A DNA stretch of 22,702 nt, from IMG/VR virus record IMGVR_UViG_3300006052_000032, positions 1 through 22,702 of that record. The stretch is one strand, 5' to 3'. Source of the stretch: a virus. Position numbers and translations under genes: made by a program. Positions within the stretch are counted from its first letter, which is position 1, and each line of letters begins with the position of its first letter. Under the pieces are notes generated by a model. It worked only from the letters and a program-made list of their open reading frames with translations, was not told the DNA's origin and ran no database searches. Below, piece by piece: positions 4,941 through 9,474 of the stretch.

Positions 4941-5957
4941 TCAGATCGAAACGATGCCGGTGAAGCCTGTCACAACCGTGCAGACCTTCGGCTTCGCGAG
5001 TACGAGTTCGAGCAGGCTGATGACCGCGCCGATGTAACCGATCTGGAAATTCGAGAGCGTGCTCTCGAACCCCGAGAAGGCGAACGCGGCGCGCTCGTGG
5101 ATGTAGAAGGCGAGATACCCCGTGTTGAGGAGGTACAGCGTCCCTTCCGGTACGTAGGGGTCCATGTAGATCGGGACGCCCGAGACCATCATCGCGCGGA
5201 ACGCCGAGCGGGCACCCCACGGTTCGTCATCGAACCCCTTCTCCGGGGTGACGACATACGACTCGTTCGGCAGGAAGTCGTTCTGCAGGGTCTGCCACGT
5301 GGCAGGCCCCATGATCCCGAAGGTCGGCAGCTCGCCGCCGTACTTGAACGTGCCGGTGATGTACTGCGCGATCAGCGCGCGGGTCGGCGCGGCGCTCGCC
5401 GTGTAGCGTTTCGCCTTCAGCCACGGGTTCGTCGTGCGCGACTGGTTGCCGTAGAGGGAGGAGTTCGTGCCGTCGTCCACCGCGGCCGGGAGGCCAATCA
5501 CCTGTGCGGTGTTCGAGACGTTGTTCAGGAGCGCGGTCGCCAGTCCGTCGCAGTAGACATTGCCGGCGTCGTTCATGCGCGCGGCCAAGAGCGGAATGAT
5601 CTCGTGCGCGTCCTGAATCAGACCCTCGAAACCGAGGTACGGAATCGGAATCACCGCACCCTTGAGGTTGAATTCGAGGTTCGTCACCGCAGGCTGCACG
5701 GCCGGCTGATTGAACGAGCCGTCGTACCCGACCCACTGCATGTTGACGAACTGCTGGCCCTGCGCCGGGATCGTCACCGACGAGACACCACCGGAGGCCG
5801 GTTGGCTGTTCGCGATCAGCGCCGCAGTCAGCGGGGAGGTGTTGTAGATCTGGACGACGAGCTTCTTGACGAAGCCGCGGCGAACGACGTACTGCAACTC
5901 CGCGCCGAGTGAGTTGACGCCACCTGTGGGGAATACACCTGTGCCAAGGACCGGCAT
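4941..5957 (-). CDS. Major capsid protein
   Basis: 338 residues from ATG 5957, with AGGAG 9 bases upstream. It follows the scaffold-like gene and contains features of HK97-fold phage coat proteins: a long helix-prone segment (GFEGLIQDAHEIIPLLAARM, about 110-129), and a central region with PTFGIMGPATWQTLQ, where a residue stretch is queried as a domain. A late P-domain-like stretch follows (VSGVPIYMDPYVPEGTLYLL), ending in LNTGYLAFYIH and a hydrophobic C-terminal strand. The 'V-G-hPhYhDPyhP-G-hYhLNt' pattern is characteristic of coat proteins. It would self-assemble into the icosahedral shell around the scaffold. Family assignment within the HK97 fold is not possible by eye. Confidence 0.85.
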   Translation of the reverse strand: MPVLGTGVFPTGGVNSLGAELQYVVRRGFVKKLVVQIYNTSPLTAALIANSQPASGGVSSVTIPAQGQQFVNMQWVGYDGSFNQPAVQPAVTNLEFNLKGAVIPIPYLGFEGLIQDAHEIIPLLAARMNDAGNVYCDGLATALLNNVSNTAQVIGLPAAVDDGTNSSLYGNQSRTTNPWLKAKRYTASAAPTRALIAQYITGTFKYGGELPTFGIMGPATWQTLQNDFLPNESYVVTPEKGFDDEPWGARSAFRAMMVSGVPIYMDPYVPEGTLYLLNTGYLAFYIHERAAFAFSGFESTLSNFQIGYIGAVISLLELVLAKPKVCTVVTGFTGIVSI

Positions 5958-6020: not shown

Positions 6021-6611
6021 TCAGTTCGTTCTGGCGGGGCCGAGCCCCTGCACCTTTCCACCCATGACTTCGTTCCACGCGGCGAACGCCTCGTTCATCG
6101 CGATCTTGTCGAGCATGTTCTTGTTCCCGACGCCCTTGCCCCAGACATCGGTCTCGGGCATCGAGAAGGTCGGGGGTGCGGAGCTCGCGGGCGTCGGCGT
6201 CGCCGACTGCTTCGAGTAGAGGTAGAGGCGCGCCGCGGCGTCGTGGCTCCCGACCTGATTGGCCGGATCGAGCATCAGCTTCTCGACTTCCTCGACGTCG
6301 GTGTCCGAGAGCCGGTACTTCGTCTTGATGTCGGCGCGGCGCTGCGCCACCGCATCGCGCGCGTCGCGCTCCATGAGCTTGCGTTCGAGCTTCTCGCGCT
6401 CTTCGCGCTCGGTCGCGATCGCCTTCTCGACCCGATCGGCCTGATCGATCTCGGGGATGTTCGCGCTCGGGTTGAGCTTCTTCACCGTCCGCAGGATCGT
6501 CTCGCGACCCTCGGGGTGTGCCATCACCTGATTGACCGTCGCCTCGATCCTCTGCAGGCGCTTGGCTTCCGCGAGGAGCTGATCGACGGTCATGTCTTCG
6601 AGGGAGGCCAC
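6021..6611 (-). CDS. Scaffold-like capsid assembly protein
   Basis: 196 residues from GTG 6611, only one base after the stop of a 19-codon ORF whose last codons (AAG GGT) supply a ribosome-binding site. An internal Met at residue 7 is an alternative start. The protein is strongly charged and helical: residues about 55-95 (EKAIATEREEREKLERKLME) form a predicted coiled coil. A Pro/Ser/Thr linker (about 132-148) and a shorter C-terminal helical tail (LDKIAMNEAFAAWNEVM) follow. Position immediately upstream of the major capsid gene, high charge and coiled coil are the usual signs of a scaffolding protein that templates the procapsid and then leaves. Confidence 0.75.
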   Translation of the reverse strand: MASLEDMTVDQLLAEAKRLQRIEATVNQVMAHPEGRETILRTVKKLNPSANIPEIDQADRVEKAIATEREEREKLERKLMERDARDAVAQRRADIKTKYRLSDTDVEEVEKLMLDPANQVGSHDAAARLYLYSKQSATPTPASSAPPTFSMPETDVWGKGVGNKNMLDKIAMNEAFAAWNEVMGGKVQGLGPARTN

Positions 6612-6612
6612 T

Positions 6613-6672
6613 TCAGCGACCCTTGCGCTTGCCGCGGAACGGCGGGCGCCACTGTCCGGTCTTGCCGCGCAT
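6613..6672 (-). CDS. 19-residue basic microprotein
   Basis: ATG 6672-6670 to TGA 6615-6613 encodes MRGKTGQWRPPFRGKRKGR, with 8 Lys/Arg and no acidic residue. It starts 2 bp after the TAA of the 59-residue gene and ends 1 bp before the scaffold GTG, with a G-rich stretch (GGGGGTCGG) upstream. The tight fit suggests a real translated cistron or a leader that couples ribosomes onto the scaffold gene. I know of no named family, and its role is unknown. Confidence 0.5.
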   Translation of the reverse strand: MRGKTGQWRPPFRGKRKGR

Positions 6673-6674
6673 GG

Positions 6675-6854
6675 TTACCGACCCCCGTTCGGCTTCGAGA
6701 TGGTGAACGGATTCTTCTGCGAGATGCGGCTCTCGCGATCGAGCCCGCCGTGCTCGGCGTAGCGCGGCTGGTTGATGATCTGACCGTTCTCCTTCTGGGG
6801 ATCGGTGGGCTTGCGGAGGCCGGTCGTTGCGGGTTCGAGATAGCGTGACGGCAT
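6675..6854 (-). CDS. 59-residue hydrophilic late protein
   Basis: ATG 6854-6852 to TAA 6677-6675, preceded by an excellent ribosome-binding site (AGGAGAGG, 4 bases from ATG). The product starts MPSRYLEPATTGLRKPTDPQ and ends ISKPNGGR. It is polar, rich in Arg, Pro, Asn and Gln, without hydrophobic core or membrane segment, and so probably disordered. It lies between the 156-residue protein and the scaffold in the head-assembly cluster. Function is unknown; a minor head or assembly factor is a guess from position. Confidence 0.65.
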   Translation of the reverse strand: MPSRYLEPATTGLRKPTDPQKENGQIINQPRYAEHGGLDRESRISQKNPFTISKPNGGR

Positions 6855-6867
6855 GATCCTCTCCTAA

Positions 6868-7338
6868 CTACTGCATCGTCGGCGGCGCGGGCGCGGCACC
6901 CGCAGCACCCGGCGGCTTCTGCATCTGTTGCTGGATGAGCTTCTGGATGTCGGTCCCACCGCCCATCTGCGGCATTTGCCTGAACATCTGCAGCATTTCC
7001 GCCGGTACTAGGTCCGAAGAATCCTTCTTTGAGCCGAGCTTGGCAAGTTTCTTCAGGCAATCCATGACAGCCATGCCCTCGGGCGTCTCGCTCCCGAACG
7101 AGCCGAGCGCCTCTTCGAGCATGGTCTGGGCGATGTGGATGTTGACCCGGGCGGCAGCCTGAAGGCCGGCCTTGTTCTGGGGCTTTGACATCGGGGCCGC
7201 GGCTGGCGCCTGCACCGGCATCGCCGAGGCGCTCCCCGGACCACCCGGCGCCGCGCCCGGAGGCGTCGCACCACCAGCCGCCCCGGGCGCAGCGCCGCCG
7301 CCCATCATCTTCTGAATGAGTTCGGGAGGAACGCTCAC
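6868..7338 (-). CDS. Gly/Ala/Pro/Met/Gln-rich head-region protein
   Basis: 156 residues from GTG 7338, 3 bp after the stop of the 29-residue ORF. Both ends are low-complexity: residues 11-50 are Gly/Ala/Pro-rich, and the C-terminal about 40 residues are Gln/Met/Pro-rich (IQKLIQQQMQKPPG). The middle (residues 57-100, AARVNIHIAQTMLEEALGSF, VMDCLKKLAKLG) is a two-helix segment. Such proteins with a helical core and disordered tails are common between portal and scaffold genes in phages. They are usually annotated only as hypothetical. An assembly chaperone or internal head protein is plausible but unproven. Confidence 0.65.
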   Translation of the reverse strand: MSVPPELIQKMMGGGAAPGAAGGATPPGAAPGGPGSASAMPVQAPAAAPMSKPQNKAGLQAAARVNIHIAQTMLEEALGSFGSETPEGMAVMDCLKKLAKLGSKKDSSDLVPAEMLQMFRQMPQMGGGTDIQKLIQQQMQKPPGAAGAAPAPPTMQ

Positions 7339-7341
7339 CGG

Positions 7342-7431
7342 TCAGACCCGCTTGGAGGCGTTCCGCATCCGCTTCGACTTGCGACGGGCGTACTTGCCGC
7401 CGCCGCCGCGCGTTCGTGCTGGTAGAGCCAT
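7342..7431 (-). CDS. 29-residue arginine/lysine-rich microprotein
   Basis: ATG 7431-7429 to TGA 7344-7342 encodes a peptide with a GGGG turn and then KYARRKSKRMRNASKR. 11 of 29 residues are Lys/Arg and none is acidic. The upstream site is only AGGA, 11 bases away. Its stop is 3 bp from the GTG of the next gene. It belongs to a chain of small basic ORFs between portal and scaffold. A nucleic-acid-binding or internal-head peptide is conceivable; a non-functional frame cannot be excluded at this length. Confidence 0.45.
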   Translation of the reverse strand: MALPARTRGGGGKYARRKSKRMRNASKRV

Positions 7432-7502
7432 GAGTGCAGATCCTGAGTGAAGGAAGAGAGGGGCGGGTCAAGCGCCCCGGATCCGGTGGGGAGACCGGAG
7501 CC

Positions 7503-7538
7503 TTACTTCCGCTTGTGCTTGCGACGATGACGAGCCAT
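7503..7538 (-). CDS. 11-residue basic micro-ORF with strong ribosome-binding site
   Basis: ATG 7538-7536 to TAA 7505-7503 encodes MARHRRKHKRK: seven Lys/Arg and two His out of eleven residues. An AGAGAGGAG Shine-Dalgarno stretch lies about 6 bases upstream, among the best sites in this operon. A longer frame in another phase (7468-7590) crosses it but has no comparable start. It could be a real micropeptide or a regulatory leader. Confidence 0.4.
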   Translation of the reverse strand: MARHRRKHKRK

Positions 7539-7609
7539 GTTCGCTCCTCTCTGGGTTCCGACTTCGGCCACTTTTGGTTGGGGGAGCAGCCATACCCCCG
7601 TGAAACTCT

Positions 7610-7780
7610 TCAGCCGCTGCGCGCTGACTTCGACCGCGAACCGTGACCACGTGCCATGCGGAGCTTCATGCGACCCGACGGGTTGCGATTGAAATTCCGC
7701 TTGAACGCATTGCCCGGCGTGTCGATGTCAGATCCGCGACTCCCGTCGTCGGAGCGCGCGATCTTCCTGCCATCGCTCAT
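7610..7780 (-). CDS. 56-residue basic protein following the portal
   Basis: ATG 7780-7778 overlaps the portal stop in an ATGA, and the frame ends at TGA 7612-7610. The product begins MSDGRKIARSDDGSRGSDID and continues with FKRNFNRNPSGRMKLRMARG. It has 14 Lys/Arg against 5 Asp and is Ser/Gly-rich, with no hydrophobic core. Translational coupling to the portal supports it as a real gene. It is the largest member of the group of basic small ORFs here. Function is unknown. Confidence 0.6.
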   Translation of the reverse strand: MSDGRKIARSDDGSRGSDIDTPGNAFKRNFNRNPSGRMKLRMARGHGSRSKSARSG

Positions 7781-9474
7781 TTCTTGCCTCCGCGGTGAGC
7801 GCCCTGCTGCTGCATCATCGCAAGTTCCTCCTTGCGCGCTGCAGCTTCCTGCTTCTCGATCACTTTAAGCCGCTCCTGCAGATCCTGCAAGTTCGGGGGA
7901 TCGAACATGTCAAGGAGCGTCGCGCGATCGATCGCCTTGGCTTCCAAGAGCGTGATCGCATCGTGCTTCCGATCCTCCACAAAGATCGGCGAGGAGCTGT
8001 GCGCGTCGACCTTCACCTCGTAGTCGCGCGTGAACTGCTCGGCGATGAACTGCGTGACTTCGGCCTTGCCCTCCGGCCCGGGAGCGGTGAACTCGAACCG
8101 CTGGTCGGAGTGATCCTGCACGAGCCGCAGGATGAGTCCCGCCACCTCTTCGGCCGACTCCTCGACGGCGATCGCGCGATCCTTCGGCCGCGCGCTGCCG
8201 AGGCGAGCCATCAGGTCCGCCTGCCCGCGCGAACGCACTCCCGCCTCGCCCTTACCCTGCAGTACGTGGCCGATTCCGGCCACGTCATCGAACATCGTGT
8301 CGATCTGGGAGACGTCAGCGAAGAGATCCGCAGGCATCTCCGGCGCATGGCTCTGGACCTTCGCGTTCGGGGTTGGGAAGGGCACCATGCCGCCCGCTGC
8401 GCGCAGCGCAGAGAGTTTCTCTTCCGTGATGCCGACGCCTCCCGTGATCGAGAACGGCGGGTCGACTTGCTTGTCCATGAGCGTGCGGATCTGCATCACG
8501 CGCGTCGTGCGCCAGTCCTGCAGCCACGCGAGCTTCGCCACGAACGAGGTATTCCAGAAGTAGTCATAGCTCGCGAAGTCGATCTGGATCTTGCTGAAGG
8601 GCGCGCGGCCCTTCACGTGCCCCATGAACTCGCTCGACCGGTCGTAGATGTAGACGTCGGGCGCGGCGCGCGTGATGACCTGATAGTCATCCGTCTCGTC
8701 GTTCCACACGTAGAGGTCGCACATGTCGATCAGCTCTGCCTCGACCACCGGGATGTAGTCGTAGCTCGTCCCCCGGCCGCCGATCCCACCCTCTACCGTG
8801 GAGCTGCCTCCGGCGAGCGCAATCGAGCCCGACACACCTCCCACCGGAGAGCCGACGAGGAGCCGCTGAAGACCGGAGTCGAGTTCCGGGAGCTTGTCGG
8901 GGCCGCCGCCGCCCGCGCGCTCCATGATGTCGCCCTTCCTGCGGTTGCCTTCGAGACGCCCCTCAAGCTCGGTTTTCGTGATCGTGTAGTGATGGGTGAA
9001 CGCCTCCTGATCGGCCAGCTCCGGGATGTCCTCCCGGAGCACCCCGAACTGGTGCGGCTCCACGAGGTAGGAGCGCACGCGGTTCCCCATCCACATCGAC
9101 TTCATCATCATCGCACCGTAGACGGACGCCCACTTCACGCCCGTCCCGTAGAGGAGGTGCGTGCGGGAGACGCGCCACTGCTCGGTGACTTCCTTCGAGA
9201 GCGGCACGCTCTTGTGGATGTCATCGATCGAGGATTCAGTCCCGAGGTGGAGCGAGAAGCGCAGCGTGTCCGGGGAGTAGATGAACGAGCAGAGCGTATC
9301 GACCGTCGAGCCGATCTTGTTGTACGGCGCGCCCTTGCCGTCCTGAGAGCCGAACAGGTAGTAGTTACGGCAGACCTGATAGAAGTTGAAGCGGTCTTTC
9401 CGCGACGCCGTGCATTGCTTCACGAGGTCGCTGTAGAGGCGCTCCTTCGCAATCAGATCCTTCGGGATCTTCAC
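7777..9474 (-). CDS. Portal protein
   Basis: 565 residues from ATG 9474, overlapping the preceding gene by ATGA. Features of portal proteins: a helical N-terminus, a middle beta region with 'GTGVKWASVYGAMM' and a placement segment (SYLVEPHQFGVLREDIPELA). A stem and crown region follows (VAKLAWLQDWRTTRVMQIRT, LRAAGGMVPFPTPNAKVQ, GIGHVLQGKGEAGVRSRGQA), ending in a long charged C-terminal helix (LQERLKVIEKQEAAARKEEL). It forms the dodecameric ring at one vertex through which terminase pumps DNA. Terminase upstream and scaffold/capsid downstream fit. Length is in the usual 450-750 range. Confidence 0.85.
   Translation of the reverse strand: MKIPKDLIAKERLYSDLVKQCTASRKDRFNFYQVCRNYYLFGSQDGKGAPYNKIGSTVDTLCSFIYSPDTLRFSLHLGTESSIDDIHKSVPLSKEVTEQWRVSRTHLLYGTGVKWASVYGAMMMKSMWMGNRVRSYLVEPHQFGVLREDIPELADQEAFTHHYTITKTELEGRLEGNRRKGDIMERAGGGGPDKLPELDSGLQRLLVGSPVGGVSGSIALAGGSSTVEGGIGGRGTSYDYIPVVEAELIDMCDLYVWNDETDDYQVITRAAPDVYIYDRSSEFMGHVKGRAPFSKIQIDFASYDYFWNTSFVAKLAWLQDWRTTRVMQIRTLMDKQVDPPFSITGGVGITEEKLSALRAAGGMVPFPTPNAKVQSHAPEMPADLFADVSQIDTMFDDVAGIGHVLQGKGEAGVRSRGQADLMARLGSARPKDRAIAVEESAEEVAGLILRLVQDHSDQRFEFTAPGPEGKAEVTQFIAEQFTRDYEVKVDAHSSSPIFVEDRKHDAITLLEAKAIDRATLLDMFDPPNLQDLQERLKVIEKQEAAARKEELAMMQQQGAHRGGKK

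Follow-up and report, generated by a model that had tools for sequence, protein, structure and literature searches.

Gene organization between the portal and capsid genes

The window, by which we mean the whole 22,702-nucleotide stretch of viral DNA that was analysed (IMG/VR record IMGVR_UViG_3300006052_000032), carries a set of head genes on the minus strand. From portal to capsid, their order is portal, p56, an 11-codon gene, a 29-codon ORF, p156, p59, a 19-codon ORF, a scaffold-like gene and the major capsid protein (MCP) gene. The features of this region, with the basis for each, are as follows.

7777-9474, minus strand: portal protein gene (Pfam SU10_portal in homologues and an AlphaFold model)
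7610-7780, minus strand: p56, a 56-codon ORF with a basic Arg/Ser-rich C-terminus (similarly placed relatives within the window's clade)
7565-7599, minus strand: PK1, an H-type RNA pseudoknot (covariation and permutation test)
7544-7548, minus strand: AGGAG, Shine-Dalgarno sequence of the 11-codon gene (sequence)
7503-7538, minus strand: 11-codon gene, MARHRRKHKRK (conservation and pN/pS)
7460-7478, minus strand: GC-rich hairpin with a T-rich tail, a possible terminator (3' of the 11-codon gene)
7342-7431, minus strand: 29-codon ORF, MALPARTRGGGGKYARRKSKRMRNASKRV (counterpart in the relative L025)
6868-7338, minus strand: p156, a conserved 156-aa protein (found in almost all relatives with a contig across the gap)
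6675-6854, minus strand: p59, a conserved 59-aa protein (gene order in relatives)
6613-6672, minus strand: 19-codon ORF, MRGKTGQWRPPFRGKRKGR (gene status unsupported by conservation)
6021-6611, minus strand: scaffold-like 196-aa protein (named from position only)
4941-5957, minus strand: MCP (phrog_9953 major head protein, E 1.9e-22)

The original prediction drew attention to four very basic ORFs on this strand, and all four are present, with lysine and arginine accounting for 7 of 11, 11 of 29 and 8 of 19 residues in the three shortest. Its description of strong ribosome-binding sites and of stop/start spacings of 1-3 bases was also borne out: the stop of the 29-codon ORF lies 3 nt from the next GTG, that of the 19-codon ORF lies 1 nt from the GTG of the scaffold-like gene, and the 11-codon gene is preceded by AGGAG. 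The start of p56 overlaps the portal stop (ATGA), and its Shine-Dalgarno sequence is GGAGG at 7791-7787. p56 and the 11- and 29-codon ORFs lie within the portal-p156 interval, hereafter the gap; the 19-codon ORF is found beyond it, flanked by p59 and the scaffold-like gene.

The portal assignment was supported by Pfam SU10_portal, matched by 31 of 41 portal homologues (best E 3.6e-14), and by a PHROG portal family, matched by 21. An AlphaFold model of the portal reached a pLDDT of 79.6 with the 41-sequence alignment (38.6 from 8 sequences), and its best PDB match was the SU10 portal (E 2.9e-15). E. coli phage SU10 (Kuravirus) thereby provides the closest solved portal fold, and it shares the order portal, small gene, scaffold and MCP. 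Unlike the window, SU10 has its portal and scaffold genes separated by one 79-codon gene, and its annotation leaves no gap able to hold tiny ORFs. The scaffold-like protein gave no significant family match.

Relatives of the window

A portal search of IMG/VR recovered 7 relatives and a portal profile 248, 80 of which were kept; an MCP profile search recovered 581, of which 80 were likewise kept. Two relatives in GenBank originate from Manatee Spring, L086 (MW202825.1) and L087 (MW202753.1). These searches yielded neither a cultured phage of the lineage nor a cultured host. The order portal, gap, p156, p59, scaffold and MCP was common to the relatives examined. In the GenBank annotation of L086 and L087, the tiny genes are omitted and hypothetical genes on the opposite strand are listed in the gap.

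Additional sequences were seen at several points of the cluster. The p59-scaffold spacer of L025 and the region after MCP in L001 hold inserted ORFs that by eye resemble HNH homing endonucleases, and other relatives have insertions of 460-640 nt between head genes. L262 and L270 have additional ORFs of 95-154 aa, poor in basic residues, between the tiny gene and p156. Two portal relatives, L110 and L111, are on contigs binned with Saccharibacteria and Patescibacteria MAGs, and L110 carries MARKARKGRKARK with GGAGG; a CPR host for these phages would be of interest, bearing in mind that binning of phage contigs is unreliable.

A tiny basic gene is conserved in the gap

Tiny ORFs were sought as ATG-initiated frames of 8-30 aa with a Shine-Dalgarno sequence and at least 50% Lys/Arg. 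Such an ORF was found in 37 of 39 non-redundant gaps, against a mean of 0.02 in dinucleotide shuffles. The opposite strand of the gaps yielded none, and a single one turned up in 257 kb from other parts of these loci. The two gaps without a qualifying ORF (L029 and L032) hold the same basic tail behind an N-terminal extension. Among loci found through MCP, and therefore chosen without reference to the gap, 46 of 58 carry a tiny ORF, and several further ones have a 20-25 aa Lys/Met/Pro-rich version instead. The combined non-redundant sample has a tiny ORF in 66 of 79 gaps. Since the subclade L248-L260 is without one, the tiny gene is not universally needed. Mx8, a distant MCP relative, showed no such ORF within the region examined.

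Constraint on the encoded peptide was assessed from pN/pS in three aligned sets. The in-frame values were 0.37, 0.32 and 0.18, compared with 1.1-3.4 in the other two frames; for the set that includes the 11-codon gene, the in-frame 0.37 compares with 1.68 and 1.11 in the alternative frames. Identical peptides are encoded by different codons among relatives, indicating that the peptide itself is under selection. Typical peptides of the window's clade are MARHKRRHKRK, MARHRRRHKRK and MARRHRRHKRK; clade B has two tiny ORFs, a MYKMAKRGRKTRR-like one followed by a MARKARKGRKARK-like one, and a third clade has MRRHKRKTRR and MRRKRRGRKSKR. Each phage has one to three tiny ORFs. When exact DNA patterns of two peptide types were searched against 2.9 million IMG/VR viral contigs, 21 and at least 118 readable matches were obtained, and among the matches listed every one falls in the portal-p156 gap.

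The peptides are usually 10-14 aa long, consist of approximately 65% Arg plus Lys after the initial Met and have almost no acidic residues. Across 124 distinct peptides, Arg makes up 35% and Lys 29%, with a mean of 7.4 basic residues, and Asp or Glu occurs in only 2; the Shine-Dalgarno sequences of this set are strong, partly owing to how the set was selected.

The 11-codon ORF and its paralogues are thus genuine conserved genes constrained at the peptide level. A frame not conserved between related phages was one of the two outcomes named as refuting the original prediction; for these ORFs, start, stop and frame are kept in relatives. An origin of these ORFs by chance in GC-rich or Arg-biased sequence has a negligible probability: nothing speaks for it in the case of the 11-codon gene, and the 37 of 39 gaps against 0.02 in shuffles, the pN/pS below 0.4 in frame only and the same peptides in quite different codons speak against it. 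What chance has in its favour concerns the 19-codon ORF, considered below.

Three relatives differ at the N-terminus. In L029, L030 and L032, the basic tail MFRRHRRHKR is fused to an amphipathic-looking N-terminal segment, e.g. MSEALMFDPLGEALHALQALLSMFRRHRRHRR, and this segment might serve as an anchor to a protein or membrane. Such an extension would be in keeping with host-directed micropeptides whose targets would be ribosomes, RNA polymerase, membranes or defence RNAs of the host, and a review (PMC11323111) describes small phage proteins as often directed at the host. In every relative, however, the gene sits in the head gene cluster and not with early or accessory genes, and we regard a host-directed role as improbable.

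The other basic ORFs

Conservation of the 29-codon ORF extends to at least one relative. Its counterpart in L025 is MPLPARTRGGGGRYARKKQRRG, and over codons 2-20 the two differ by 10 synonymous and 5 non-synonymous codon changes; looser basic analogues are found in several other relatives of the window's clade. p56 is recognisable at the same position in that clade (e.g. L001, L015, L022 and L031-L033).

For the 19-codon ORF, no basic ORF was found between p59 and the scaffold-like gene in any relative, and it has no Shine-Dalgarno sequence of its own. Its frame is therefore not conserved, its membership of a conserved set is rejected, and it may be a chance ORF or a recent addition. The argument that four such ORFs in one cluster are hard to explain by chance accordingly holds for the 11-codon gene and in part for the 29-codon ORF, and fails for the 19-codon ORF, whose counterparts number zero. 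At least two of the four ORFs in the window are real genes.

A conserved pseudoknot precedes the tiny gene

Upstream of the 11-codon gene lies PK1, a feature absent from the original prediction. Its layout is GGGGG-UA-UGGCUGCU-CCCCC-AACCAAA-AGUGGCCG (7599-7565, minus strand). In stem 1, GGGGG (7599-7595) pairs with CCCCC (7584-7580), and in stem 2, UGGCUGCU (7592-7585) pairs with AGUGGCCG (7572-7565). The two helices cross, both are retained in relatives despite changed letters, and each shows compensatory changes, as is characteristic of an H-type pseudoknot. At its centre, stem 2 retains either a mismatch or a tandem U.G/G.U wobble.

In two alignments (A4 and A5), 93-94% of cells pair, and the covariation scores were 0.29 and 0.33 versus 0.117 and 0.088 in shuffles, none of 500 shuffles reaching as high; these counts are biased towards the structure, since anchoring relied on the GGCT and GGCC cores, which are conserved, five elements that were short or wrongly anchored were re-cut or removed after visual inspection, and the two stem 2 lengths were separated by eye. 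The score dropped once the partners were slid. A permutation test anchored on the cores only gave a mean run of 3.94 versus 3.27 ± 0.09 for stem 1 and 2.56 versus 2.22 ± 0.055 for the variable half of stem 2.

The position of PK1 relative to the tiny gene is narrowly kept. Among 82 distinct relatives, its 3' end lies 18-24 nt from the AUG and 6-11 nt from the Shine-Dalgarno sequence (5-95% ranges). A search of IMG/VR with a PK1 DNA pattern returned 88 new matches, all in this gap; 78 were scored as having a tiny basic ORF after them, and sequence inspection attributed the other 10 to start mis-picks or contig ends. A relaxed scanner detected PK1 in 48 of 66 gaps with a tiny ORF (18 of 66 undetected) versus 1 of 13 without, against a reverse-strand background of 19 of 79. 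PK1 is a conserved RNA structure that is genetically linked to the tiny gene.

Known RNA classes were considered for PK1. Rfam gave no match up to E 5 for window positions 6500-7900 or up to E 1 for six relatives. A tmRNA-like RNA was rejected, as ARAGORN found none in the window and the tiny ORF has its own AUG and Shine-Dalgarno sequence. A programmed frameshift signal, which calls for a pseudoknot 5-9 nt past a slippery site inside an overlapping ORF, was rejected as well: in the window, PK1 starts 10 nt past the upstream ORF's stop and its 3' end precedes a separate Shine-Dalgarno sequence and AUG, and in clade B it likewise follows the stop of the first tiny ORF. In many relatives of clade B (e.g. 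L040 and L004), a small hairpin with a GNRA-like loop (GCCCGAAAGGGC) lies between that stop and PK1.

The linkage of PK1 to the tiny ORF (88 of 88 new matches; detection in 48 of 66 ORF-bearing gaps versus 1 of 13 others), its placement 18-24 nt ahead of the AUG and the central wobble or mismatch of stem 2 raise the possibility that the peptide is a miniature Arg-rich RNA-binding regulator of PK1 or of another late mRNA site, which would autoregulate its own expression or that of the capsid operon. Arg-rich peptides often recognise helix distortions such as tandem wobbles or mismatches. Phage precedent for autoregulation through a pseudoknot exists in T4 gp32 (PMC3014915). Against such a regulator, the exchange of Lys and Arg and the variable length and spacing suggest low specificity, and several tiny ORFs are without PK1 (L006, L007 and L245). 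We consider this explanation unlikely, but the most serious of the competing ones. A narrower form of it, in which a peptide of 10-13 aa would specifically recognise PK1 in its own leader and thereby time or dose head assembly, seems slightly more doubtful; it would represent the smallest known autoregulatory RNA-peptide pair, in a lineage with SU10-like portals in which a second pseudoknot, PK2, would close the transcript in one clade.

Elements after the tiny ORF

Hairpins recur after the tiny ORF in relatives, with an overall terminator count at chance level; consensus promoter and terminator counts were both at that level and served as positional hints only. A TTGAC box is present in the post-ORF spacer of 54 of 86 relatives, and in 33 of 42 spacers with the box a hairpin ends within 8 nt of it. 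In clade B, as opposed to the window's own clade, PK2 was found after the second tiny ORF (L040 at about 8000-8085, L067, L069, L203, L306 and others). PK2 is again of the H-type, for example CATC-AUU-UGGCGGUUG-GAUG-CUAAA-UAACCGCCA with a TTGACA box directly after, and the pairing between its hairpin loop and 5' flank passed the permutation test (3.79 versus 2.71 ± 0.13).

These elements bear on whether the tiny ORFs are leader or attenuator ORFs, in which translation of Arg/Lys codons would sense translation or charged tRNA and control the capsid operon through the hairpins that follow. The terminator-like hairpin at 7478-7460, whose counterpart in L006 is strong, lies ahead of the capsid operon, and the TTGAC box past the ORF in 54 of 86 relatives could also be accommodated. 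The peptide, however, is kept while its codons change; an interchange of Lys and Arg would be intolerable for a sensor of a single tRNA; PK1 lies upstream of the ORF and is not an alternative to a terminator; two or three ORFs occur in a row; and the capsid genes of clade B seem to have their own promoter. Attenuation therefore appears quite improbable. The related suggestion that the ORFs act as translation-coupling leaders is weakened by the conservation of the peptide sequence and by the Shine-Dalgarno sequence that each conserved tiny ORF has of its own.

Possible function of the tiny peptides

Given this composition, with 65% Lys plus Arg and an acidic residue in 2 of 124 peptides, binding to a polyanion is the most likely activity, and the location among head genes suggests a role in packaging DNA or in assembling the head. 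DNA binding, one of the roles put forward in the original prediction, is thus plausible. At this length and charge the peptides cannot fold independently, and hence they probably work by covering or compacting nucleic acid. We favour, tentatively and with somewhat less than even confidence, small polycationic assembly peptides that bind nucleic acid and are made in amounts governed by the pseudoknot. They would coat or condense nucleic acid while the head is assembled and filled, much as J of phiX174 binds DNA. PK1, at the edge of the 30S footprint, would set or feedback-control the amount of peptide, its placement there being suggestive of dose control. The several paralogous copies per phage and the free exchange of Lys and Arg fit a bulk-charge role. 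Counting against such a role, each peptide brings approximately 8 charges, and thousands of copies would be required to neutralise much of the genome.

Several known systems offer comparisons. Protein J, of 24-38 aa, belongs to ssDNA microviruses. The tiny peptides resemble J of phiX174 and other microviruses in being very small, strongly basic and encoded among morphogenesis genes. J coats DNA at about 120 copies per replicative-form molecule (PMC13386984). Unlike J, the peptides described here are mostly 10-14 aa and are encoded in tandem in tailed dsDNA phages behind a pseudoknot leader. Adenovirus mu and similar core peptides are short, Arg-rich and DNA-condensing and reside in a dsDNA virion. 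Such animal-virus core peptides are released from precursors by a protease, whereas each tiny peptide is the direct product of an ORF, mostly of 10-14 codons.

Short Arg-rich segments that act together with a nearby structured RNA are also represented by lambda N and boxB. Lambda N is a larger antitermination protein that binds a hairpin; here, the basic segment makes up the whole tiny gene, and a pseudoknot takes the place of the hairpin. Like the tiny gene, T4 gene 32, whose product is a nucleic-acid-binding protein, has an H-type pseudoknot upstream of its start codon (PMC3014915). In T4, the pseudoknot is situated about 67 nt upstream, where it serves to nucleate cooperative binding, and a 2010 review regarded it as possibly the one viral pseudoknot that functions in translational autoregulation (PMC3014915). 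PK1 differs in ending 18-24 nt upstream of the start; its likeness to the T4 element is one of location and structure.

Significance

The tiny genes belong to a large group of environmental phages and are mostly preceded by a conserved pseudoknot. At 10-13 codons, such genes are shorter than the minimum size applied in usual annotation, and no description of these peptides or of PK1 was found in the published literature covered, which comprised open-licence papers. Conservation across portals of only about 40% identity would place the tiny genes among the shortest conserved phage protein-coding genes known. Binding of the peptides to the packaged genome would give tailed dsDNA phages an equivalent of the viral core peptides; binding to the pseudoknot would amount to a minimal RNA-peptide regulator. 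The presence of PK1 makes the regulation of the tiny gene directly testable.
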